Positions 2,657 to 23,735 of a DNA stretch of 23,735 nucleotides are shown piece after piece. Location of the stretch: positions 1-23,735 of the IMG/VR virus record IMGVR_UViG_3300033141_003686; one strand, 5' to 3'. Under the pieces are notes generated by a model that saw nothing but the letters and a program-made list of their open reading frames with translations, made no database searches and was not told the origin of the DNA. Each line of letters begins with the position of its first letter. Positions within the stretch are counted from its first letter, which is position 1. The position numbers and the translations under genes are program-made. This stretch comes from a virus.

Positions 2657-5600
2657 TTATTGTTTGGCATAAATATCTAAAGCTATTTCACCGTCAATAG
2701 CACGTTGATCTATCTCTGTTATTATACTATCAACTTTTTCCCCAAATACAGCATCAACAAAAAAACCCAAAGAAGATAATGTGTAATTACTTTGTTTTAA
2801 AAGTAATTTAGCATACTTATACATATTCGCCGATGCTTCTATTCGGTCAATATAAAATGTTGTTACTGTATTTGAATTTATATAAATTCTTATTTTTTTA
2901 ATTGACGTTATCCCTGCTAATGCTAAATGTCTAACTTTCATAAATCCGTCACTCACTTTTAAAAACCCATCACTTACTTTCATAAAACCTAAATCTGTAA
3001 CTTCTTCTATTGACGATTCTATTTGCGCCCATTCATCTGTAATTTGTTTAGCTTCGATTTCAACTTGTGCATCATCTTTATCAATAAAAACTAATTTTAC
3101 AGAAATAGCTGTAGTAAGAAAATAAATATAAAATCGTAAATTAACAGGAAAATACAGTATTTCATCTAATGTATATTCAACATAATCACCTAATGAACCA
3201 TCTGCTGTAATAAATTTTAATGAACGTAAACCAGTTAATACTTTATCAGTTGAAACAGAAAATGTTGTTACAGTTAGATTACCTGTATCCCATCCTGTAA
3301 GCGTATCACATTCTGCTAATAATTGCCAATAGTAATCACGTTTATTTGCTAATCCGTAAAAACCAAAAGAAAGAGGATTTGTTACTACTAAATCTTTAAT
3401 TCTTACTCGTTTACTCGGATAAGCAAATTGGTTTATAATCGAATTAGAAATATTTTGAATTGTAGTATTATCTGCATAATCAGGAAAAATCATTTTCTTT
3501 TCAAATATTCCTAATCTTCCTTGACTTTCTGTATCTTGATAAGTTGCTACATATTCCGTTGAAAATCTATCAGCTAATTTGGTTCTAAAAGCAAGAATTT
3601 TATTAACGACTTCAGAACCTTTCTTATCAACTTTAGGAGATTGATAATCATATCCTTCAAAATATGTCTCTTGTGAAGTAGTATTTATTTCTTCAAAAAC
3701 TAATTCTCTTTCATTATCAACATACCATCTATATTTTGTAGTATCATAATCATAATTAGCTATTTTTAATAATTCGGAAAAAACATCGAAGAGATTTTTA
3801 TCTTTAAATTCTATAGATATATCATTAATAATAGGAACATCAATTTTAGCAGCATTATAATAAACACCTACTGAAGTTCCCAAATATGTTGTTCCTATGT
3901 CATCTATAATAAAGGACAATGTTTTAGTAATATAAGTGACATTTATAATTTTTTCTGTTAATTTCTTTGAAAAACCGCTTCCTTCAATTTTAAGAATTAA
4001 ATCAGTTTGATCCTTTTCAGGTAAGTTTATTATATAACCTATAAACCAAAGAGTACCATTTATATAAAAATAACATTCTGATCCACCACTAATTGGTATA
4101 TCATAATCTCGAGGTATTTCAAAGGAGAATTTTTCAACGCCACCAATTTCTTTTTCAACTACTTCAGCTTTTAAAAGCGAACCCGACGAATCTGTATCAG
4201 AAAGAAAACCTATCAGATCACCACTAATAGAATATATTTTTAATTGAATACCCGTTTGTGGTTTTATCCCCCCAGGATGTTCATACAAGAATTTAATTTC
4301 ATCCTCTGTCAATACTCTATTGTATATTCGTGGTTCATCTATGAGACCTTCATATCTAAATCCACTACCGTCATGATAAGCACCCCATGCTATATTACCT
4401 GTATTGGAAATATTAAATGGAAGTGTACTAATATCTCCTTCAACAGCATCTTTAATTCCATTCATATAAGCATAGAATTTATCAATAGTTCGATTTATTA
4501 CAAGTACGATATGATTCCAAAGCGTATCAAAAGGAGCTGCATTAAAATCAGCAGCTACATTAACTCCACTATAATAAAAATTCGCTCGTAATTGATTATC
4601 TGCACTATATGATCGTATCATTAATCTGTTATCAAAATTTTGATACTTTACAAATATACATCCATTACTTAGAGGAACTGTATCCTTACTCTTCATCCAA
4701 AATGAAATACTAAAATCCCCATATCCAACCATATTCAACGGATAATTATTTCCACAATCAACACGTTCATCGGTACCTGGAAAATTAATAGCTCCTGCTG
4801 ATTTACCTTTTACCCAAGTAGGAGCAGTGCCTTCTAATGTACCGTCATTTAATTGTGCTGATCCATCAAAAGCATATATTCCATTCTTATCATTAAACGA
4901 CCAGTAACCTAATAATCCGTCAATTAATCCATCTGGATGTTCATATAGAAAGTTTATTTCTTCTTGTGTTAATGCATAGCTATATATTCGACATTCATCA
5001 AGGAGACCTTCGTAAGGAAATAAACCATCATGTCTTGCTCCCCATAATAAATTACCTGTATTTGAACAATCGGTAGGAAGAGTACTTAAATCCATAGTTG
5101 GTATATTGGCAAGTTGTGCATCAAAATACACTGTTGCTAAATTAGTAGTGCGATTTACTACAATAACAACATGATGAAATATAGAATCAAATGGTCCTGG
5201 ATTAAAATTAGCATGAACTAAAACACCACCCTTTTTTATATAAACTCTTAACTCTACACTAATTCCATTTGAAAATAATCCAATTTCATTATCCGAATTT
5301 TGATATTTACTGAATAAATATCCATAATTTAAGGGTATTTCATCTTTACTCTTCATCCAAAAACTTATACTAAAATCCCCATTACCGATACGATCTAATG
5401 GAGGAGCATTTCCGCAATCAACACGTTCATCTGTACCAGGAAAATTAATACATTTTTTTACTTTTCCTGTCACTCTTGTTGGTGCTGTTCCCTCTAATGT
5501 TCCATCATTTCCTTCACCAGACATATCAAATACAGTTGCGCCATTTGGTTCATCCATCGGCCAATATCCAATTAATCTATTATAATCTTGAACTTTAATT

Positions 5601-6079
5601 TCGTCGAAGTATGCTTTATCCCCTATATTTGCAGTTGAATATATAACGACTATAATTCGAACACCAGTAGTATCAGTATGAATTTGATGAATTATCTTTA
5701 ATTGTTCCCAAGTATCATTTAAAGAAGCATAATCTGTAAAATAATGCCAGCTACCACTATAATAAGTACCAATTTGTAAATAAACTTCAGCAGGAGTAGT
5801 TCCTGCAGGAACATAAACTTGTGTTCTAAAAATATATGTTTGTCCAGGAATAAATCCGTACAATTTATTTTGATCCTCAGCAGGATGAAATATAGCAAAA
5901 GCTGAACCAGCACCAGCACCACTTGTTTTAGTTAATAAAAAAGAATAACTACCAGAATATTTTTGAACATTACTTCTTACCCATGTAGAATTATAAAATA
6001 CTGGCGGATATCCTTGATCTTTTAAATGAGGATATATTGTTTCTTCACAAAGTCCATTAACAACTTTATTGTTATACAT
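2657..6079 (-). CDS. Tail hub / tip protein with two LamG domains and carbohydrate-binding-like modules (1140 aa)
   Basis: This mosaic protein follows the distal tail gene, its ATG overlapping the previous TAA by 8 nt. Residues 25-166 look like a jelly-roll carbohydrate-binding module ending Y-F-D-E-I-K-V. Residues 168-384 and 388-604 are two LamG (concanavalin-like) domains, an internal duplication spaced 220 residues, each with identical I-N-F-P-G-T-D-E-R-V-D-C-G-N and G-D-F-S-I-S-F-W-M-K-S-K-D. Residues 611-915 resemble the Gp18/PblA-like tail hub fold (I-G-Y-I, D-L-F-D-V-F). Residues 917-1083 look like another jelly roll inserted before the last 55 hub-like residues. The hub domain would seal the tail tip and guide the tape measure. 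The LamG and jelly-roll modules would bind host glycans. The domains are recognised by pattern only. Finding the adhesin modules in front of the hub is the unusual part. Confidence 0.75.
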   Translation of the reverse strand: MYNNKVVNGLCEETIYPHLKDQGYPPVFYNSTWVRSNVQKYSGSYSFLLTKTSGAGAGSAFAIFHPAEDQNKLYGFIPGQTYIFRTQVYVPAGTTPAEVYLQIGTYYSGSWHYFTDYASLNDTWEQLKIIHQIHTDTTGVRIIVVIYSTANIGDKAYFDEIKVQDYNRLIGYWPMDEPNGATVFDMSGEGNDGTLEGTAPTRVTGKVKKCINFPGTDERVDCGNAPPLDRIGNGDFSISFWMKSKDEIPLNYGYLFSKYQNSDNEIGLFSNGISVELRVYIKKGGVLVHANFNPGPFDSIFHHVVIVVNRTTNLATVYFDAQLANIPTMDLSTLPTDCSNTGNLLWGARHDGLFPYEGLLDECRIYSYALTQEEINFLYEHPDGLIDGLLGYWSFNDKNGIYAFDGSAQLNDGTLEGTAPTWVKGKSAGAINFPGTDERVDCGNNYPLNMVGYGDFSISFWMKSKDTVPLSNGCIFVKYQNFDNRLMIRSYSADNQLRANFYYSGVNVAADFNAAPFDTLWNHIVLVINRTIDKFYAYMNGIKDAVEGDISTLPFNISNTGNIAWGAYHDGSGFRYEGLIDEPRIYNRVLTEDEIKFLYEHPGGIKPQTGIQLKIYSISGDLIGFLSDTDSSGSLLKAEVVEKEIGGVEKFSFEIPRDYDIPISGGSECYFYINGTLWFIGYIINLPEKDQTDLILKIEGSGFSKKLTEKIINVTYITKTLSFIIDDIGTTYLGTSVGVYYNAAKIDVPIINDISIEFKDKNLFDVFSELLKIANYDYDTTKYRWYVDNERELVFEEINTTSQETYFEGYDYQSPKVDKKGSEVVNKILAFRTKLADRFSTEYVATYQDTESQGRLGIFEKKMIFPDYADNTTIQNISNSIINQFAYPSKRVRIKDLVVTNPLSFGFYGLANKRDYYWQLLAECDTLTGWDTGNLTVTTFSVSTDKVLTGLRSLKFITADGSLGDYVEYTLDEILYFPVNLRFYIYFLTTAISVKLVFIDKDDAQVEIEAKQITDEWAQIESSIEEVTDLGFMKVSDGFLKVSDGFMKVRHLALAGITSIKKIRIYINSNTVTTFYIDRIEASANMYKYAKLLLKQSNYTLSSLGFFVDAVFGEKVDSIITEIDQRAIDGEIALDIYAKQ
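2927..2989 (-). repeat. Triple 21-bp coding repeat (heptapeptide G-F-M/L-K-V-S/R-D/H)
   Basis: Residues 1031-1051 of the hub protein are three copies of a heptapeptide: GFMKVSD, GFLKVSD, GFMKVRH. The DNA copies differ at a few bases. They fall inside the inserted jelly-roll-like module and look like a slippage-type tandem expansion. Confidence 0.85.
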
Positions 6080-6863
6080 AATCTCGTTCTCGCCATTTAA
6101 TATTTACGTCGCAAGCTGCATTAGGTACAATCTTTAAAGTCGATGAACCAACGGGGAAATTAAAAAATCCCGTTCCGTCAGCAATAGAAGCTATTCTATT
6201 TAAATCACCGATTTTCAAAGTACCTTTTTCACAATCTAAAATCATAGTTAAATATGTTGAAGTACCAAATATAGAATCATTTATTTTTATCCCTGTTCTT
6301 GTTTCATCAATAAATGCTTCTATTTGTGAAACTGCAACTGAAGCAGTAAAAGTAAAAATAGGGCAAACCGGTAAAAAACCATTATTTGTAATAGCTATTT
6401 CATTAACCGTTACAGATAATGGTTCATCTTGACTTTGTTGAGTAACATCTTCCCAATAAGGGGTAATTAATCTTAAACTTGCACTAATATCACTTGATAA
6501 TTTATGAGCGCCTTTATCATATTTAATATTTATATCTTCTATATTAATAAGTGTTCGTCTATCGTTTGTTTTATCAATCAAGTAAACTGCTTTTTCTAAC
6601 CATTTTATAAATTCATTCTCAGCAGCTCTATAATCAGTATCTAGTGGAAAACTACGTATTAATTGTAATCGAGTATTACTACTTTTTAATCTTGTTACCC
6701 CAAGTTTTACTGCTCCTGGTAAAGCAGAATTCTCGACTATTTTACTATCAAAACGGAATCTATCCGACGGAAATGTTACAGAACTTTTAGCAGGTTCAGT
6801 TATACTTGATCCACTTAGTTCGTATTCATTTTCGTCTATGTCTTGTAAAGCATATTCTATCAT
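6072..6863 (-). CDS. Distal tail protein, Dit-like (263 aa)
   Basis: The gene lies between the tape measure and the large tip protein, exactly where Dit proteins are encoded in siphoviruses. Dit forms the ring joining the tail tube to the tip or adhesion device. The protein has a split layout: an N-terminal part (about 1-135) with the typical L-x-R-x-F-P-L-D/T-D-Y-R-A-A-E pattern, then a beta-sandwich (about 150-260) with T-N-N-G, a D-C-E-K-G-T-L-K turn and a closing strand before N-I-K-W-R-E-R. The size (263 aa) suits the Dit family. The ATG overlaps the tape-measure TGA (ATGA) and its TAA overlaps the next ATG by 8 nt, so it is translationally coupled on both sides. The assignment relies on order and fold pattern. 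Confidence 0.7.
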   Translation of the reverse strand: MIEYALQDIDENEYELSGSSITEPAKSSVTFPSDRFRFDSKIVENSALPGAVKLGVTRLKSSNTRLQLIRSFPLDTDYRAAENEFIKWLEKAVYLIDKTNDRRTLINIEDINIKYDKGAHKLSSDISASLRLITPYWEDVTQQSQDEPLSVTVNEIAITNNGFLPVCPIFTFTASVAVSQIEAFIDETRTGIKINDSIFGTSTYLTMILDCEKGTLKIGDLNRIASIADGTGFFNFPVGSSTLKIVPNAACDVNIKWRERDYV

Positions 6864-9475
6864 CTTGCTAACCTTAATTCTTTACCAAGATTTTCAGATA
6901 CCTGCTCAACAATATAATCTAAATCCATTTCACTATTAATATTTGCGCCTTCAAATGAAACATTTATTATTTGAGGAGAACCACCAGCACGGGCAATTTC
7001 ACGTGAAATATCCGCAGGGATTACAATTGTTCCACCAGGAAGATTAAGGATTTCTCCACCACGTTCATTAATCCTTGTTAATCCTGAAGCTGTACCACCT
7101 TCTTGCATAGCTGGTACAAATTTTTGTCTACTTATCATCGCTATTTGAGCGGCAGATAATGTTACTGTTAATCCTGTCATAACTCCAGCAAATATAGGAC
7201 CAGCAATAGGTCCTAATTTAGTAGCAGCTTTCCACCATCCCATTATTGCCGATGCAGCATCTGAAATTACCCCAATTATTCTATTCTTTTTATCTGCTTC
7301 AAAAACTTGTTTTGCTAAAGCATTTTTCTTATCTTTATATTCTTTATCGAGTTTTTCTTTTTCTGCATTAAATTCGTCTTCAGATATGATTTGATTATCA
7401 AAGTTTTGTTGTAGTCTTGATAATTCTGCTTGATACCATAAATCCAATTCAGCTTTTTGATTTTCATAATATTGTGAACGTATAGCAGCAATCCCACTAA
7501 AAGTAGTAGAAGTAACTGAAGTTATAGTATCATAAGCCAATTGAACTTTTTCAACTTGTTTATCCCAATTATCTGACCAAAGTTTACGACTAGTACTAGT
7601 ATAAGTTTGTAAACTGATTAATCCATTATTAAAAGAAGTTTGAAGTACATTTTGTAATTCTTTATATGTTAATTTACCTTTATCTATTAATTCGTCCCAA
7701 AAATCAAACCAAGTATATTTTTCTTGTTCCCGACTTTCTTCAGTATCTGTAGTTATTGTATCATTTCCCTCTTTTATACCTTCGCTTAATAATCCCATTT
7801 GTTCAAGAATTTCACCAACAAAAGCTTCTTGTCCAGTTAATAATTCACCCCAATTTGCTTTTACATAACTATTCCCAGTTTCAAAAGCAACAGAAACTTT
7901 TCCTGTTAATTCTGTTGCCAATTCTTCTGTTTCGCCTGAAAATTCTTTTACTTCTCCACGAACTGTTTTAAATATCGCACCAATACTTTCAATATAACTT
8001 TTTCCTAATGACGTAAAAGCTTGACCTGCAGTTCTTGCTTGATCTTTAACATCTTGCCACTCAGCTTCACCTTTTAAAAATGCAAAGAATTTTCCCACAA
8101 CTCCAGCAGATTCTTGTATAGCTGTAATCCAATCAGCAAATATTTTGATTGAATTAGTAATAGCAGTTCCTAAAACAGTAACACCGGAAATAACAAGATT
8201 AACAACAACAGACAAAAGTTTCATAGCACCAGCACCGCCAGTTGTTTCACCAAAAACTTTTGCTAAGGATTCTTTTAATGCACCCCATACTTCTGTAACC
8301 GCAGATTTTACTGCTGCAAATAAAGGTGTAACTATTCCTTTAATTAATTCAAACGCACCAGCAACACCTCCAGCAATATTAGCTATAAGTTCCATCCCTT
8401 GAGAAGACATAACAAATGCTAACATCCCTTGAGCAGCAGAAGTAGCACCAACTGCTAATTTATCGACAAAATGTTTTCCTATATTCCCAACGGGTACCAT
8501 TAAATTTGCAATAGCATTTTTAAAAGTAATAAATGTTTTTTCTTGTTTATCAAATGCTACTTGAGTTACACCAGCAGCATTTTCCATTTCTGCTAATACT
8601 CTTGTAAATTCTTCTCCACCAACACCCGTTAGTGCCATAGCACCACGTAAAGCACGAATATTAGGAAGTAATTTTGACATTTCTGCAGCATCGCCACTAG
8701 TTGCTTCTTCAACTAATTTTAATGCACCAGCTAAACCTTCAGCTTTAAGAAATGCACTACCAGATTCATATCCCATTTCAGTAAGTTTATTTATCATAGC
8801 TTCTGAGGGTTTTAAAAATGCGTTAACAATAGCGTTTAATTGAGTTGTAGCAACATTAGCATTTACGCCTTGTTTTGTCATAGCAGCTAAACCAGCGGCT
8901 AATTGTTCTAATTCTATTCCAGCTGAAGCGTATAAAGGAATAGATGTACCAATTGAAGCTGCTAATTCTTCGCCAGTTATTTTTCCAAATTTAATTGTTT
9001 GAAAAAATAAGTCTGAAGCTTTTGTAGTATCCATTGTTGCTTTACCATATGCATTTACTGCAGTTGTTAAAACATCTACCGCAGTAAATGTATCTGTTAA
9101 AGCAGCTTTACCAAACATAGCTGCGTCAGTTGTTATTTTCATAGCTTCTTCTGCAGTTGTTGCACCAGCAGAAAAAGCTTGATATAATCCTTCGGTTAAT
9201 TCAGTTGCTGTACCTAATTCTGGATTTAATAATATTATTTGTTTCGATAATTCTTGCATATTGACTTGAGTTGTGTCAATAAGAGTAGCGACATTTGACA
9301 TAGCTTTTTGGAATTCATCGCCAGCTTTTACAGCAGAAACAAACGCAGCAGTAAAAGCAGCAGCTATTGCTGCTCCAGCAACAGTTGCGCCTTTAGAAAT
9401 AGTCTTTAATCCACTCTTCCAGTTTTTTGTATCTAATTTAGCTTCGCCGTAAATCGCACCTGCTTTAAAAGCCAT
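6860..9475 (-). CDS. Tail tape measure protein (871 aa)
   Basis: This is the longest tail-module gene in the usual tape-measure slot. Residues about 25-50 form an Ala-rich hydrophobic stretch. Residues about 55-265 match the TP901-type tape-measure core (PhageMin_Tail), with the E-L-T-E-G-L-Y-Q-A-F-S-A-G and G-V-N-A-N-V-A-T-T-Q-L-N-A-I segments. Several further hydrophobic segments follow, then a charged coiled coil (about 675-735). The C-terminus has the G-G-E-I-L-N-L-P-G-G-T-I-V-I-P-A motif usual at tape-measure ends. The protein measures tail length and enters the cell envelope during DNA injection. At the common ratio of about 0.15 nm per residue the tail would be near 130 nm, which is a rule-of-thumb estimate. 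The start has an AGGAAA site and overlaps the upstream chaperone frame by 11 nt. Confidence 0.92.
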   Translation of the reverse strand: MAFKAGAIYGEAKLDTKNWKSGLKTISKGATVAGAAIAAAFTAAFVSAVKAGDEFQKAMSNVATLIDTTQVNMQELSKQIILLNPELGTATELTEGLYQAFSAGATTAEEAMKITTDAAMFGKAALTDTFTAVDVLTTAVNAYGKATMDTTKASDLFFQTIKFGKITGEELAASIGTSIPLYASAGIELEQLAAGLAAMTKQGVNANVATTQLNAIVNAFLKPSEAMINKLTEMGYESGSAFLKAEGLAGALKLVEEATSGDAAEMSKLLPNIRALRGAMALTGVGGEEFTRVLAEMENAAGVTQVAFDKQEKTFITFKNAIANLMVPVGNIGKHFVDKLAVGATSAAQGMLAFVMSSQGMELIANIAGGVAGAFELIKGIVTPLFAAVKSAVTEVWGALKESLAKVFGETTGGAGAMKLLSVVVNLVISGVTVLGTAITNSIKIFADWITAIQESAGVVGKFFAFLKGEAEWQDVKDQARTAGQAFTSLGKSYIESIGAIFKTVRGEVKEFSGETEELATELTGKVSVAFETGNSYVKANWGELLTGQEAFVGEILEQMGLLSEGIKEGNDTITTDTEESREQEKYTWFDFWDELIDKGKLTYKELQNVLQTSFNNGLISLQTYTSTSRKLWSDNWDKQVEKVQLAYDTITSVTSTTFSGIAAIRSQYYENQKAELDLWYQAELSRLQQNFDNQIISEDEFNAEKEKLDKEYKDKKNALAKQVFEADKKNRIIGVISDAASAIMGWWKAATKLGPIAGPIFAGVMTGLTVTLSAAQIAMISRQKFVPAMQEGGTASGLTRINERGGEILNLPGGTIVIPADISREIARAGGSPQIINVSFEGANINSEMDLDYIVEQVSENLGKELRLAR

Positions 9476-10138: not shown

Positions 10139-10158
10139 TCTTTTCTCCTATTATAATT

Positions 10159-10216
10159 TTTGGTATAATGGAAGATGAGCGTCGGTCCCGATCCCCAGAG
10201 CTTCCATTATACCAAA
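10159..10216 (-). other. Long hairpin (16-bp perfect stem, 26-nt GC-rich loop) after the major tail gene
   Basis: The arms 10159-10174 and 10201-10216 are perfect reverse complements (TTTGGTATAATGGAAG and its mate). They enclose a 26-base loop that is far more GC-rich than its surroundings. On the minus strand the hairpin starts seven bases after the major tail protein stop and ends before the chaperone ribosome site. No U-tract follows on either strand, so it is not a standard intrinsic terminator. It could stabilise the 3' end of the tail-protein message, attenuate transcription into the chaperone, or be the scar of a small insertion. Confidence 0.7.
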
Positions 10217-10223
10217 TTATTTT

Positions 10224-20919: not shown

Positions 20920-21296
20920 ATATATAGTATCGCATATACTGCAATTTGTAAACCCTAAAATGAATTTAGATATTCGAATTTATAAAACGATTTTGAACAA
21001 TATATCATACTGATATCTCCACAATAGATTAACGTAGCGCGACGTTCAACAAGAAGTTCATATAATTATATGAAAACCAAGATATCGTGTTGCCACGTTG
21101 GTTTATAGTGATATTCGATAAATCTTTGCTATATATGCATATATACCACTTATAGGACAATATTTTTCAAAACCCCTGTTTCCTCTGTGGCGGTCTGAAT
21201 TAAAATAATTGTTTATACTGTATAGACTTATAATATAGGGCTCGCAGTGAACACTGAGTAAACTCCTATTTGAAAAAAAGAAAAAAAAATTTCTTC
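20920..21296. promoter_or_regulatory. Palindrome- and repeat-rich gap next to terminase (candidate packaging/control site)
   Basis: This 377-bp stretch has no gene. It holds inverted repeats at 20926-20940 (AGTAT/ATACT), 21002-21016 (ATATCA/TGATAT) and 21031-21046 (AACGT/ACGTT). It also holds an 18-bp perfect palindrome at 21057-21074 and a 16-bp perfect palindrome at 21130-21145. One copy each of TGCCACGTTGG (21091) and TGTTTCCTCTGTGGCG (21177) recur inside the neighbouring NUMOD gene. Position beside terS is where cos or pac sites usually lie, so binding sites for the small terminase are a fair guess. An operator region for the divergent halves is the alternative. Confidence 0.5.
20924..20952 (-). 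promoter_or_regulatory. Putative sigma70 promoter for the terminase operon
   Basis: On the minus strand TTTACA (20952-20947), a 17-base spacer and TACTAT (20929-20924) match the -35/-10 layout. The -10 box ends four bases before the terminase ATG, so the transcript would begin about at the start codon. Confidence 0.5.
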
Positions 21297-21386
21297 TTAA
21301 TTTAGGTTTGGTGTTTCCTCTGTGGCGCCGGTTTTTAATTCATTATACTGTAATGAATTAGGGCCTGGACAGTCCTGCCACGTTGG
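21177..21386. repeat. Diverged direct repeat (TGTTTCCTCTGTGGCG blocks) spanning the NUMOD 3' end
   Basis: The 16-mer TGTTTCCTCTGTGGCG occurs at 21177-21192 and 21312-21327. TTATACTGTA follows at 21213-21222 and 21343-21352, and AGGGC at 21237 and 21360. Together they form an imperfect direct repeat of about 65 bp. The shorter TGCCACGTTGG at 21091-21101 recurs at 21376-21386. The right copy encodes the last residues of the NUMOD protein; the left copy lies past its stop. Confidence 0.7.
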
Positions 21387-21899
21387 ACGCGTTAGGCAGT
21401 TTTCGGCCAAGGTTTTACCGCTTGCGGGAATAAGAAAGTCTTTTACTACGGCGGGATCAAAATCTTTAGTGTAAATAATAAGAGCTTTATCGCTTGGATG
21501 ACGATTATATAAATATCGAACAACAAGTCTTTTATCTATCCCAATATATTTGGCTGCTTTAGAAGCAGTACTACATATTTTAAGAAAATTCCCTTTTTTA
21601 TCGAAAATAAAGAATTGCATTTTATGGGGGGATAATCGCGTAGAACGTTTAAATCGTTCTTCTTGTTTACGAATTTGTTCTTTTCTTTTTTTATCTATTT
21701 TTGCTTGTCGTGCGCCGAGGTCTATACAAGTAGTAACACGATACCCCCGAACAGAACGAGTTGGATTATTAAGAACTTGGGAAAAACATGACGAATGAAT
21801 ATTTAACGATTTAGCTGCTTCATGCATCGATTCAAATTCAAGTTTTTCGTTGGTTTCTTTATGAATAAGAGTAATCGGAATTGCTTGTTTATTATCCAC
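21297..21899 (-). CDS. NUMOD-type DNA-binding protein without nuclease domain (200 aa; GTG start)
   Basis: Residues 8-56 (I-T-L-I-H-K-E-T-N-E-K-L, M-H-E-A-A-K-S-L-N-I-H-S-S-C, R-G-Y-R-V) and 94-146 (F-I-F-D-K-K-G-N-F-L, A-S-K-A-A-K-Y-I-G-I-D-K-R) are two NUMOD1-like helix-turn-helix modules, joined by a lysine/arginine-rich linker (66-86). Such modules bind DNA in phage HNH and GIY-YIG homing endonucleases. No HNH, GIY-YIG or LAGLIDADG motif is seen, so it is either a free-standing regulator or the remnant of a homing enzyme. The last 25 residues (P-G-P-N-S-L-Q-Y-N-E-L-K-T-G-A-T-E-E-T) overlap a repeat and a hairpin and may be a recruited tail. The GTG start has no ribosome site and sits seven bases after a -10-like TACAAT. 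Confidence 0.65.
   Translation of the reverse strand: MDNKQAIPITLIHKETNEKLEFESMHEAAKSLNIHSSCFSQVLNNPTRSVRGYRVTTCIDLGARQAKIDKKRKEQIRKQEERFKRSTRLSPHKMQFFIFDKKGNFLKICSTASKAAKYIGIDKRLVVRYLYNRHPSDKALIIYTKDFDPAVVKDFLIPASGKTLAENCLTRPTWQDCPGPNSLQYNELKTGATEETPNLN
21336..21360. repeat. Hairpin (10-bp perfect arms) near the end of the NUMOD gene
   Basis: TAATTCATTA at 21336-21345 pairs with TAATGAATTA at 21351-21360 across five bases. It closely resembles the hairpin at 22154-22178 on the other side of the gene. No U-tract follows on the minus strand. Confidence 0.7.
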
Positions 21900-22193: not shown

Positions 22194-22229
22194 TTGGCAA
22201 ATGGCACAGTTATTTCATATACGTATATG
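22194..22229 (+). promoter_or_regulatory. Weak promoter-like boxes with a 14-bp palindrome (candidate operator) for the small-gene operon
   Basis: TTGGCA (22194-22199), 18 bases, then TATACG (22218-22223). The -10-like box sits inside the perfect palindrome CATATACGTATATG (22216-22229). This is the only plus-strand candidate I could find ahead of the structured leader, and the boxes are imperfect. Confidence 0.35.
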
Positions 22230-22504
22230 TTCGAAAGGAAAAACGGAAACCGGAGGCTGGATTGAAAGGCTGGATGGATTTCCGAAACAGAGAAGGAAGA
22301 TCAAGGGATCGGGGGATAGCACGGCGCGAGGTTCGAATCTCGCTGGCACCGGTCAAGGTGGCTAAGATTCACGGGAATCAAGGTTAACACCGAGCAAGAA
22401 TAGCTCCGATAGGTAGATCAAACCTCCTAATTCGAAACCGGCGAAAGCCGGTCGATGAGGATTGCGCGACCTTATCCTGAAGATGAAAGCGCGGGAGGTT
22501 CAGA
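22230..22504 (+). promoter_or_regulatory. GC-richer structured RNA leader that can hide the ribosome site of the first small gene
   Basis: The stretch after the phased T-tracts is markedly GC-richer than its surroundings and folds into a chain of hairpins by eye. GCGAG/CTCGC closes a GTTCGAAT loop (22326-22343). GATTC/GAATC lies at 22366-22379, GAGC/GCTC at 22392-22406, ACCGGC-GAAA-GCCGGT at 22437-22452 and AGGAT/ATCCT at 22458-22478. AACCTCC (22421-22427) can pair with GGAGGTT (22494-22500), which contains the ribosome binding site of the gene at 22505. CCTC within the first strand could instead pair with GAGG at 22457-22460, freeing the site. Two exclusive folds are what riboswitches, thermosensors and attenuators use. 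The start is arbitrary and the folding is by eye only. Confidence 0.5.
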
Positions 22505-22660
22505 ATGCTTTGGATTTGCACAGTTTGCGGGCACGAAGTTATTTCAAACGAAAAACCGGATCCGATTCGTTGGGACGATCGGCATGTTTGCTACTTTAAG
22601 CAAGTGACGAACGAAGAAGCGAAAAAGATTCGGAAACGAACGAAATACTTTGGAAACTAA
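22505..22660 (+). CDS. Small Cys/His protein, zinc-ribbon-like (51 aa)
   Basis: The ATG at 22505 follows GGGAGGTT at the proper distance. The 51-residue product starts M-L-W-I-C-T-V-C-G-H-E, a C-x-x-C-G-H knuckle, with a later H-V-C-Y and a basic C-terminus (E-E-A-K-K-I-R-K-R-T-K-Y-F-G-N). The arrangement could hold one zinc ion, as small phage zinc-ribbon proteins do. Codons are GC-richer than in the next two genes. It is the first gene of the row, and its ribosome site can be masked by the leader. No function can be assigned; small phage proteins of this sort often bind nucleic acids or host factors. Confidence 0.7.
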   Translation: MLWICTVCGHEVISNEKPDPIRWDDRHVCYFKQVTNEEAKKIRKRTKYFGN

Positions 22661-22662
22661 AT

Positions 22663-22702
22663 CCACAGGGAACGATAAATAAATTATCGTTCCCATTCGT
22701 GG
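22663..22702 (+). promoter_or_regulatory. Intergenic RNA processing-like hairpin, element 1
   Basis: It begins two bases after the previous stop. CCAC (22663-22666) pairs with GTGG (22699-22702). Inside, GGGAACGATAA (22668-22678) pairs with TTATCGTTCCC (22684-22694) around a five-base loop. The junction is asymmetric: A on the left, ATTC on the right. The ribosome site GGAGGT follows about 20 bases later. An upper stem, an internal loop heavier on the 3' side and a lower stem resemble phage RNase III sites. Confidence 0.65.
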
Positions 22703-22730
22703 TGAACAAATCTTTTTACGGAGGTATGAA

Positions 22731-22928
22731 ATGAGATCATTTTCAAAAGAAATTCGAAAACACGGTAAACCAATCGAACTTCATCCTGGACTAAATTCTA
22801 AAACTCGTTTCGTTATTTATTCAGATAATGAAATTTGGGAGTTTACTCGTTTTAGAATTGGCGGAGGAAAATGGAATTGGATAGGTATTCGTGTTGGAGG
22901 AGCGGTAAATCAACTTTATCGAAAATAA
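22731..22928 (+). CDS. Unknown small basic protein (65 aa)
   Basis: The ATG at 22731 follows GGAGGT; an earlier ATG in that site hits a stop after one codon. The product is 65 residues, basic and aromatic: F-S-K-E-I-R-K-H-G-K-P-I-E-L, then a strand-like middle (F-V-I-Y-S-D-N-E-I-W-E-F-T-R-F-R-I-G) and G-G-K-W-N-W-I-G-I-R-V-G-G. I do not recognise it. The strand-turn-strand pattern with a charged start suits a small nucleic-acid-binding or host-inhibitor protein, but nothing is diagnostic. It is flanked on both sides by similar RNA hairpins. Confidence 0.65.
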   Translation: MRSFSKEIRKHGKPIELHPGLNSKTRFVIYSDNEIWEFTRFRIGGGKWNWIGIRVGGAVNQLYRK

Positions 22929-22971
22929 CCTCACAGGGAATATTACTATATGTAATATTCCCTTTCGAGGT
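22928..22971 (+). promoter_or_regulatory. Intergenic RNA processing-like hairpin, element 2
   Basis: The outer stem ACCTC (22928-22932) pairs with GAGGT (22967-22971) and takes in the last base of the previous stop codon. The inner stem AGGGAATATTAC (22935-22946) pairs with GTAATATTCCCT (22952-22963). The junction has AC on the left and TTC on the right. The tail GAGGTGAACAAATC matches element 1, while the stem sequence is different, so the structure is conserved and the stem sequence is not. Confidence 0.65.
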
Positions 22972-22999
22972 GAACAAATCTTATTTTGGAGGTAATTGT

Positions 23000-23278
23000 A
23001 TGATTAAAACATGGGTAGGACCGAGTGACAAAAATAATGAAATGATTGAACAACTTAAATCAGGTGTTCATTTACTCGTTATTAATGCCTCGACTCTTGA
23101 ACAAGTGATAATTGCTACTGTAATCAACGGCGTATGCAGTTGTGATTATTTCACGGTTGGTGATAATGAAGATGTTTTTCATTATACACCTCACGAAATT
23201 GACGAACATCAAGAAAATGTTTCCGTTCAAGATTTGCTTGAAGCTGATTGTACATTTATTGTCAAGCAATTCATTTAA
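23000..23278 (+). CDS. Unknown acidic small protein (92 aa)
   Basis: The start is the ATG at 23000, eight bases after a perfect GGAGGT, not the earlier in-frame ATG at 22871 that would overlap the previous gene. The 92-residue product is acidic: it has a hydrophobic centre (V-H-L-L-V-I-N-A-S, Q-V-I-I-A-T-V-I-N-G-V-C-S-C) and an acidic, histidine-bearing end (F-H-Y-T-P-H-E-I-D-E-H-Q-E-N). Three cysteines are present but are not spaced as a zinc finger. No family is recognised. An acidic compact protein in an early-gene-like cluster could be a decoy or inhibitor of a host nucleic-acid-binding protein, which is only a guess. A hammerhead ribozyme starts at the first base after its stop. Confidence 0.7.
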   Translation: MIKTWVGPSDKNNEMIEQLKSGVHLLVINASTLEQVIIATVINGVCSCDYFTVGDNEDVFHYTPHEIDEHQENVSVQDLLEADCTFIVKQFI

Positions 23279-23330
23279 CCCACCTGATGAGCTCGGATGA
23301 GCGAAACCGGGATTTATTCCCGGTCGTGGG
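23279..23330 (+). ncRNA. Type I hammerhead ribozyme (self-cleaving RNA)
   Basis: All core elements of a hammerhead are present and in order. Stem I strand CCCAC (23279-23283) is followed by core CTGATGA (23284-23290), stem II GCTC/GAGC with loop GGAT (23291-23302), core GAAA (23303-23306) and stem III CCGGGA/TCCCGG with loop TTTAT (23307-23323). Then come T (23324) pairing with the last A of GAAA, C (23325) as the cleavage nucleotide, and stem I strand GTGGG (23326-23330). Cleavage is predicted between 23325 and 23326. Stem I is the open stem, hence type I. Hammerheads of this sort are known in phages. Here the ribozyme lies directly between the stop of the 92-aa gene and the ribosome site of the next gene, taking the place that hairpins have in the other gaps. 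Confidence 0.9.
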
Positions 23331-23337
23331 AAACCAC
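23326..23337 (+). promoter_or_regulatory. 5'-end hairpin formed after hammerhead cleavage
   Basis: GTGG (23326-23329) and CCAC (23334-23337) close a GAAA tetraloop right at the predicted 5' end of the downstream message. The same GTGG bases form stem I before cleavage, so the two folds compete. A terminal hairpin can shield the new 5'-hydroxyl end from decay. Confidence 0.55.
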
Positions 23338-23362
23338 AAATTAATTTTTATGGAGGTGCGAT

Positions 23363-23536
23363 ATGAAGAGTGGTAAAGCTAAATTCCAGACTTTGGTGAA
23401 TGCGTTTCCCGGACGGAAGATCGGGATTGCGCGGATCAAGAAGTACACCGGATTGAGTGAAAAATCAATCGCGATGTATACCAGCTGGAAATGCTACGGA
23501 AAGTTTCGCAACGGCAAACTTTGCGTAACTACTTAA
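23363..23536 (+). CDS. Small putative winged-HTH-like protein (57 aa)
   Basis: The ATG at 23363 follows GGAGGT. The 57-residue basic product reads K-I-G-I-A-R-I-K-K-Y-T-G-L-S-E-K-S-I-A-M, which has the spacing of a helix-turn-helix (first helix, T-G-L-S turn, recognition helix). A short hairpin (Y-G-K-F-R-N-G-K-L-C-V) follows, as the wing of a winged helix would. A role in transcription control is plausible. It is the one gene downstream of the hammerhead, so its message would begin at the ribozyme cut. Codons are GC-richer than in the two genes before it, hinting at a separate origin. Confidence 0.65.
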   Translation: MKSGKAKFQTLVNAFPGRKIGIARIKKYTGLSEKSIAMYTSWKCYGKFRNGKLCVTT

Positions 23537-23542
23537 AGCACG

Positions 23543-23575
23543 CCACGATCAGCTCCCTAACGGGAGCTTTCGTGG
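23543..23575 (+). promoter_or_regulatory. Intergenic RNA processing-like hairpin, element 4
   Basis: Outer stem CCACGA (23543-23548) pairs with TCGTGG (23570-23575). Inner stem AGCTCCC (23551-23557) pairs with GGGAGCT (23562-23568) around TAAC. The tail GTGGTGAACA matches elements 1 and 2, and AGGAGGT follows closely. No U-tract follows, so an intrinsic terminator is unlikely. Confidence 0.65.
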
Positions 23576-23596
23576 TGAACACATAGGAGGTACAAA

Positions 23597-23735
23597 ATGA
23601 TTGTCAAATGTAGTTGGTGCAAACAAATAATCGAAGAAAAAACACCGTATGACGATTGTTGCATTTCTCACAGTATTTGCAAATCTTGCAACGACAAACA
23701 GTTTTTTAACTTCAAAGAATTGTTTTGGGGGATTG
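23597..23735 (+). CDS. Zinc-finger-like small protein (3' end outside window)
   Basis: The ATG at 23597 follows AGGAGGT, and 46 codons are visible before the edge. The sequence has C-S-W-C-K near the start and C-C-I-S-H-S-I-C-K-S-C later, i.e. two C-x-x-C pairs with an S-H-S-I-C-K-S-C unit. That resembles the S-H-G-I-C-P-x-C zinc-binding unit found in several small bacterial and phage proteins. It is expected to bind zinc; its partner is unknown. It is the fifth gene of the plus-strand row and is again preceded by a processing-like hairpin. Confidence 0.7.
   Translation, partial: MIVKCSWCKQIIEEKTPYDDCCISHSICKSCNDKQFFNFKELFWGI

Follow-up and report, generated by a model that had tools for sequence, protein, structure and literature searches.

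Folded RNAs in every gap of a small-gene phage operon: a predicted hammerhead ribozyme and three core-less hairpins as probable message boundaries

The early operons of phage T7 are processed by RNase III at hairpins located between the genes. Cleavage of the T7 R1.1 RNA takes place at one phosphodiester and yields products of 47 and 13 nt (PMC4858673). Perreault et al. 2011 (PMC3088659) described hammerhead ribozymes that occur in clusters around single genes of phages and prophages; these ribozymes cleave in vitro, a cluster of A. tumefaciens also cleaves in E. coli, and for the prophage clusters a role in dividing long transcripts into messages of one gene each was proposed (PMC3088659). 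Hammerhead cleavage leaves a 2',3'-cyclic phosphate and a 5'-hydroxyl (PMC6155905), and pistol, twister sister and hatchet were found near hammerhead and twister (PMC4604425, PMC6155905). Here we describe an operon of small genes in the IMG/VR record IMGVR_UViG_3300033141_003686, a linear virus sequence of 23,735 bases (referred to below, at its full length, as the window), in which each of the four intergenic gaps carries a folded RNA, namely three hairpins (elements 1, 2 and 4) and one type I hammerhead.

The locus resembles the clusters of PMC3088659 in the use of successive gaps, as do the eight hammerheads of another phage locus (L210, see below), and differs from them in that a catalytic core is present in one gap of four, the other three being occupied by core-less hairpins with the same boundary sequence. 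As in the ribozyme-associated phage neighbourhoods (PMC4604425, PMC6155905), varied structured RNAs lie near similar small phage genes, but the hairpins of the window match no Rfam family and have no visible catalytic core. With the RNase III sites of T7 (PMC4858673) they share the form of internal-loop hairpins placed between early genes and separating messages; they differ in their shorter helices, inconsistent loop asymmetry and conserved 13-nt tail, and in the presence of a ribozyme in one of the gaps. The initial annotation of this DNA, made from the sequence alone, presented the arrangement as one with no known described counterpart. This holds in part: hammerheads in gap after gap had already been published (PMC3088659), and the claim was overstated with respect to the several ribozyme classes described near such small genes (PMC6155905, PMC4604425). 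Hammerhead punctuation of phage operons is thus known, while its mixture with core-less counterparts appears to be new. In our interpretation, which we regard as probable, the gap elements are punctuation marks delimiting one-gene mRNAs, one of them a self-cutting ribozyme and three of them core-less boundary hairpins.

The gaps are 70, 71, 84 and 60 nt long and span 22661-23596 on the plus strand. The three hairpins and the hammerhead are found at the positions originally given for them. Element 1 (22663-22702, to 22708 with its tail; plus strand) begins 2 nt past a stop codon and reads CCAC-A-(11-bp stem)-ATTC-GTGG, followed by the tail TGAACA; element 2 (22929-22970, to 22976 with its tail; plus strand) directly follows a stop codon and reads CCTC-(11-12-bp stem)-TTTC-GAGG, with the same tail. 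Element 4 (23541-23577, to 23581 with its tail; plus strand) has the form CGCCACGA-TC-(AGCTCCC TAAC GGGAGCT)-T-TCGTGGTG, the last part overlapping the tail TTCGTGGTGAACA. Their z-scores, computed against dinucleotide shuffles, are -4.8, -7.2 and -6.4, respectively. The window contains exactly three copies of the combined boundary and tail, TTCG(T/A)GGTGAACA, one per hairpin gap, and no further copy was found there even when one or two mismatches were allowed. The regions 3' of the hairpins, which contain the tails, are predicted to be unstructured.

The stems of the hairpins vary in sequence and keep their pairing, as had been noted at the outset: elements 1 and 2 differ in five pairs of the lower and upper stems, and every one of these is changed on both sides. 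A covariance model made from these two elements detected element 4 within the operon at E = 6e-4 (the E-values of such home-made models are rough). In the best fold of element 4 the lower stem measures 8 bp and the internal loop is 2/1 (5'/3'), so that the 3'-heavy asymmetric loop originally ascribed to all three hairpins is a property of elements 1 and 2, in which the lower stem has 4-5 bp. The helices comprise 15-17 bp in total. The catalytic core CTGANGA...GAAA is absent from the gaps of elements 1, 2 and 4, and a search of Rfam gave no family for the hairpins at E<=1 (window) or E<=2 (operon), apart from chance hits.

The third gap contains a type I hammerhead (23279-23330, plus strand) with a complete core and a predicted cut at 23325/23326. 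All core residues that were checked are present (CUGAUGA, GAAA with A15.1-U16.1, and GUC), and the predicted fold has stems of 5 bp (I), 4 bp (II) and 7 bp, with stem III closed and stem I open-ended. A search for the full motif gave one occurrence in the window and none in 60 dinucleotide shuffles. Rfam Hammerhead_HH9 matches the same positions with 21.8 bits against a gathering threshold of 52 (E=0.29 for the window and 0.02 for the operon), and RF00163 was not reported there; the gathering threshold concerns score and not structure, and the core is complete. Inspection revealed no extended stem I and no clear pseudoknot that could provide a contact between stem I and loop II. We classify 23279-23330 as a type I hammerhead with predicted self-cleavage. 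After the cut, the segment GTGG-GAAA-CCAC (23326..23337, plus strand) is predicted to fold into a hairpin at the 5' end of the downstream product, in which the 3' strand of stem I is used again.

When the four elements are compared, positions 22699, 22967 and 23572 of the hairpins are the equivalents of the hammerhead cut position 23326, as the initial annotation had proposed. TCGTGG of the hammerhead and its CCAC partner are identical to those of elements 1 and 4, and outside the elements TCGTGG is present at only two places on the plus strand of the window. The statement that all four elements end alike is therefore well founded among the three hairpins and limited, for the hammerhead, to TC-GTGG and the CCAC partner. 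Judged against dinucleotide shuffles, the spacer downstream of the hammerhead is weakly similar to that of element 1 (p = 0.035) and to that of element 2 (p = 0.32), and because of this weak similarity in the rest of the leader a common origin of hammerhead and hairpins is plausible, not proven. In all four gaps the element begins 0-6 nt past the preceding stop codon, and 25-37 nt separate the cut, or the position corresponding to it, from the next ATG. The hammerhead lies between small phage genes, with a stop codon just 5' and a ribosome-binding site 3' of it, as in hammerhead-punctuated operons. The original description of the elements as interchangeable fits this layout, and to some extent the shared TCGTGG/CCAC; it does not extend to activity.

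The geometry of the four elements matches that of hammerheads in other phages. A scan of IMG/VR for one common form of stem II gave at least 120 stretches; from the loci kept, together with the window and the related phage G016 (locus L097, see below), 88 type I hammerheads could be folded, 81 of them with distinct leaders (the window, L097 and L155-L232, among which related phages are not independent). These hammerheads lie at a median of 7 nt after the upstream stop and 28.5 nt before the next start, among the matches listed. In 27 of the 81 the downstream product is able to fold a 5'-terminal hairpin, compared with 13.4 +/- 3.2 for shuffled leaders and 10.4 +/- 3.1 for swapped leaders; after weighting by stem I family the excess is 12.1 versus 6.65 +/- 1.67, a value reached in 1 of 300 shuffles. 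Both the hammerhead of the window (GTGG-GAAA-CCAC) and that of G016 (AGTG...CACT) can refold the 5' end in this way, and the test set includes these two, which prompted the idea. Refolding of this kind, which uses the stem I 3' strand a second time, may drive the release of the product and shield its new end. In the same survey, locus L210 (1340-6860, plus strand) has successive gaps filled by hammerheads, eight in total, in which stem I and the leader are almost unchanged and stem III differs. Locus L215 has one core-less sibling alongside two hammerheads.

A mixture of core-bearing and core-less gaps is also present in a phage whose proteins, in the set tested, show no similarity to those of the window (L219, IMGVR_UViG_3300025889_003204). 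Its small-gene operon lies on the minus strand (4310-8970 in reverse-complement coordinates). This operon contains one hammerhead, with a predicted cut at GTGTC^TATAGC and a ribozyme strand of the form GCUAUA-CUGAUGAGUCC...GGACGAA-ACAC, and eleven core-less sites, all of which keep GTGTC-T(A/G)T(A/G)GC. The part kept in all eleven is thus the substrate strand of the ribozyme. In nine gene leaders an unrelated simple hairpin is followed by GTGTC-T(A/G)TAGCA(A/T)TAGGAGGCTA and ATG, and GTGTC-TAT(A/G)GC is retained at two more sites, which lack the same ribosome-binding site. The hexamers of all eleven sites pair 6/6 (G-U allowed) with the 5' arm of the hammerhead, and GTGT pairs with the other arm. 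No core-less site was found on the opposite strand of L219, and in the other phages of the survey such sites occur at chance level (19 vs 14, among the matches listed). The gap with the hammerhead resembles an ordinary L219 gap to which an enzyme strand has been added upstream. Predicted two-strand folds of ribozyme and site give no hammerhead form, and Rfam returned no meaningful match for L219. The conservation of the sites could reflect descent, a conserved nuclease site or trans-cleavage, and from its sequence the operon is a candidate for a natural trans-acting or shared-site hammerhead.

Relatives of the window phage were sought with its terminase, which gave 22 loci of 56-89% identity, most of them too short to reach the operon; in the closest ones (L017-L019, 79-89% terminase identity) the operon ends are missing. 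Against 84,980 genomes the terminase found distant prophage terminases only, and no host was assigned. G016 (43.6 kb; terminase 64% identical to that of the window) is probably circular, since its ends carry a near-identical repeat. Its syntenic divergent operon contains a complete hammerhead in the gap that precedes a small gene, 28 nt before the ATG, with an Rfam score of 24.3 against a gathering threshold of 34. A strong plain hairpin (AGGCTGTC...GACAGCCT; L097, 388-414) lies 5' of this hammerhead in the same gap. In another relative, G013 (locus L103; terminase 69% identical), five copies of a previously undescribed, fully covarying three-way-junction RNA were identified, each in the leader of a small gene (L103 10796-10844, 11315-11365, 11653-11703, 12427-12479 and 13448-13496, plus strand). 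The model was built from four copies, in which 98% of the cells are paired, 11 of the 15 pairs change on both sides and the loops DTWAG and TTCAA are kept; it then found the fifth copy at E = 2e-6. A partial copy of this type (E=1) is situated at a contig end, in the matching position (L030, 1-22, minus strand). The three-way junction matches no Rfam family, and its model gave no match in 80 hammerhead loci. The G016 helicase and a G013 gene, used as baits, recovered themselves or a distant match only. As judged from the G016 hammerhead, the G013 junctions and the elements of the window, the gaps of small-gene operons in this phage group tend to be structured, with the kind of structure varying from phage to phage.

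The hairpins themselves were looked for more widely. Searches of IMG/VR with the tail yielded 13 stretches for TCCCNTTCGWGGTGAACA, which look like coding DNA, and 42 for the tail plus GGAGG, fewer than the approximately 80 expected by chance, with no member of the hairpin family among them; the hairpin model likewise had no match in the 80 hammerhead loci. A pair of loci from the tail search (L136/L141) was dropped, the hairpin in their leader being unrelated. The search among related phages suggested in the initial annotation has thus provided a hammerhead in a matching operon, that of G016, and no further hairpins of this family.

How the punctuation would work can be outlined as follows. 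The gaps would divide a polycistronic, early-type phage transcript so that the message of each small gene is split from the next, with the hammerhead predicted to cleave the transcript at 23325/23326. The core-less marks, which have a stem I-like lower stem (CCAC/GTGG), a stem III-like upper stem and the boundary TTC|G(T/A)GG, and lack the CUGAUGA-stem II-GAA core, would most likely act as structural boundaries of the mRNA. The upstream message would be guarded at its 3' end by the hairpin, whose conserved tail TGAACA would lead to an unfolded, accessible ribosome-binding site. After cleavage by the hammerhead, the new 5' end may fold back (GTGG-GAAA-CCAC), which would promote product release, hinder re-ligation and protect the end. 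Starting from directly observed features, i.e. the structures and their kept pairing, the common tail, the geometry and the similar designs in other phages, we infer that the hairpins of the window mark and guard the same message boundary as the hammerhead; cleavage activity, end protection and the descent of hairpins and hammerhead from one another are likewise deduced from sequence. Several observations weigh against this interpretation. The hairpin family of the window was found in none of the other phages searched, and its conservation hence rests on three copies in one contig. The corresponding gaps of relatives hold other structures, terminator-like hairpins or nothing, and the spacer homology between hammerhead and hairpins is weak. 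Furthermore, stem I of the hammerhead has just 5 bp and lacks a recognisable tertiary-contact loop, for which reason its activity could be slow.

Among the alternatives, the hairpins may be substrates that a host or phage double-strand RNase of the RNase III type cuts at TTC|GTGG; the operon would then alternate between cleavage by protein and by ribozyme. The order of upper stem, internal loop and lower stem, the alignment of the boundary with the hammerhead cut, the conserved tail beside variable stems and the T7 precedent of intergenic processing all agree with such a view; yet the 15-17 bp of helix, the short lower stems of elements 1 and 2 and the 2/1 loop of element 4 do not favour it, and as RNase III usually ignores sequence, it would not explain the conserved 13-nt tail. 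We consider this possible but unlikely: RNase III processing has no specific support here, and the original designation of the hairpins as RNA-cleavage modules was not supported, given their length and the missing 3'-heavy loop of element 4. A hammerhead deprived of its 22-nt core would have the very outline CCAC-A-stem-TC-GTGG, TCGTGG and CCAC are common to both kinds of element, and core-less siblings accompany hammerheads in L219 and L215 as well, all of which would suit inactive remnants that lost the core and were kept as folding leaders of the next gene. A neutral remnant would, however, lose both the pairing of its differing stems and the identity of its tail, and GTGTC is unchanged in the eleven L219 sites; we therefore find this origin doubtful. 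Much the same low probability applies to plain translation or transcription devices unrelated to the ribozyme (terminators, attenuators or insulators that free the ribosome-binding site). Their position between stop codon and ribosome-binding site, the unstructured tails and the terminator-like hairpins in such gaps of some relatives are in line with devices of this sort, but no T-run follows the stems and no intrinsic terminator was called at elements 1, 2 or 4, and the tail and boundary held in common with the hammerhead would be left unexplained. A promoter or terminator reading of the hairpins found no support.

Action of the hammerhead of the window in trans on the tails of the other gaps is very improbable. 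The case for it comes from L219, where the conserved GTGTC and the complete hexamer pairing with the arm of a single hammerhead are confined to one strand, and where core-less sites in other phages are at chance level; even in L219, the two-strand folds give no hammerhead form. In the window the ribozyme arms do not fit: when CCCAC is set opposite GAGG of element 2 an A-A mismatch results, and beyond A-U stem III does not pair with TTC. The change from CCAC/GTGG to CCTC/GAGG, which maintains the local stem at the expense of pairing with the ribozyme arm, speaks against trans-cleavage here. A broader proposal is that in operons with a shared boundary the core-less copies of the substrate strand are still cut, in L219 by the ribozyme in trans and in the window by a protein at TTC|GTGG. 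We give it a small chance; if true, a natural ribozyme, or a pair of ribozyme and nuclease, would process a whole operon via repeats of its own cleavage site.

The operon on the plus strand starts at 22505 and comprises at least five small genes of 51-92 amino acids, the last one cut by the contig end. Gene 1 (22505..22660, 51 amino acids) bears a weak zinc-ribbon resemblance (PF21349, E=0.0013, below the cut-off), gene 2 (22731..22928) encodes 65 amino acids, gene 3 (23000..23278) encodes 92 amino acids without a family match, gene 4 (23363..23536) encodes 57 amino acids, and gene 5 (23597..23734) is the open reading frame (ORF) interrupted by the contig end; all are on the plus strand. The encoded proteins gave no clear family match, and no relatives were found for genes 2 and 4 at the protein level or for the whole stretch at the DNA level. 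The minus strand (3-20919) carries genes including the terminase large subunit and proteins resembling those of phage structural genes. A long near-perfect inverted repeat (TTTGGTATAATGGAAG...CTTCCATTATACCAAA; 10139-10223, minus strand; z -6.7) is located between late genes. Between the divergent operons there are two copies (21177-21230 and 21312-21360) of a unit TGTTTCCTCTGTGGCG followed by a palindrome around TTATACTGTA, which are candidate, possible sites for a regulator or a phage promoter. An ORF on the minus strand (21297-21899) has a NUMOD1 domain (E=3e-10) and weak matches to HNH-endonuclease families, with no nuclease domain found, and is a putative truncated homing-endonuclease relic or DNA-binding protein. 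The structured region 5' of small gene 1 (22200-22504, plus strand) contains GCGAGGTTCGAATCTCGCTGGCACC, a sequence similar to a tRNA T-arm and 3' end; a tRNA was not called there, and the region is possibly an attachment site or a tRNA relic.

These results bear on the question of why phages carry hammerheads. If core-bearing and core-less gaps coexist in one operon with boundary, geometry and leader kept, their direct comparison would show what cleavage adds. The L219 operon permits a particularly sharp test, as its eleven sites conserve the strand that its lone ribozyme would need to bind. These results further suggest that most related elements in operons of this kind escape ribozyme searches made with covariance models.
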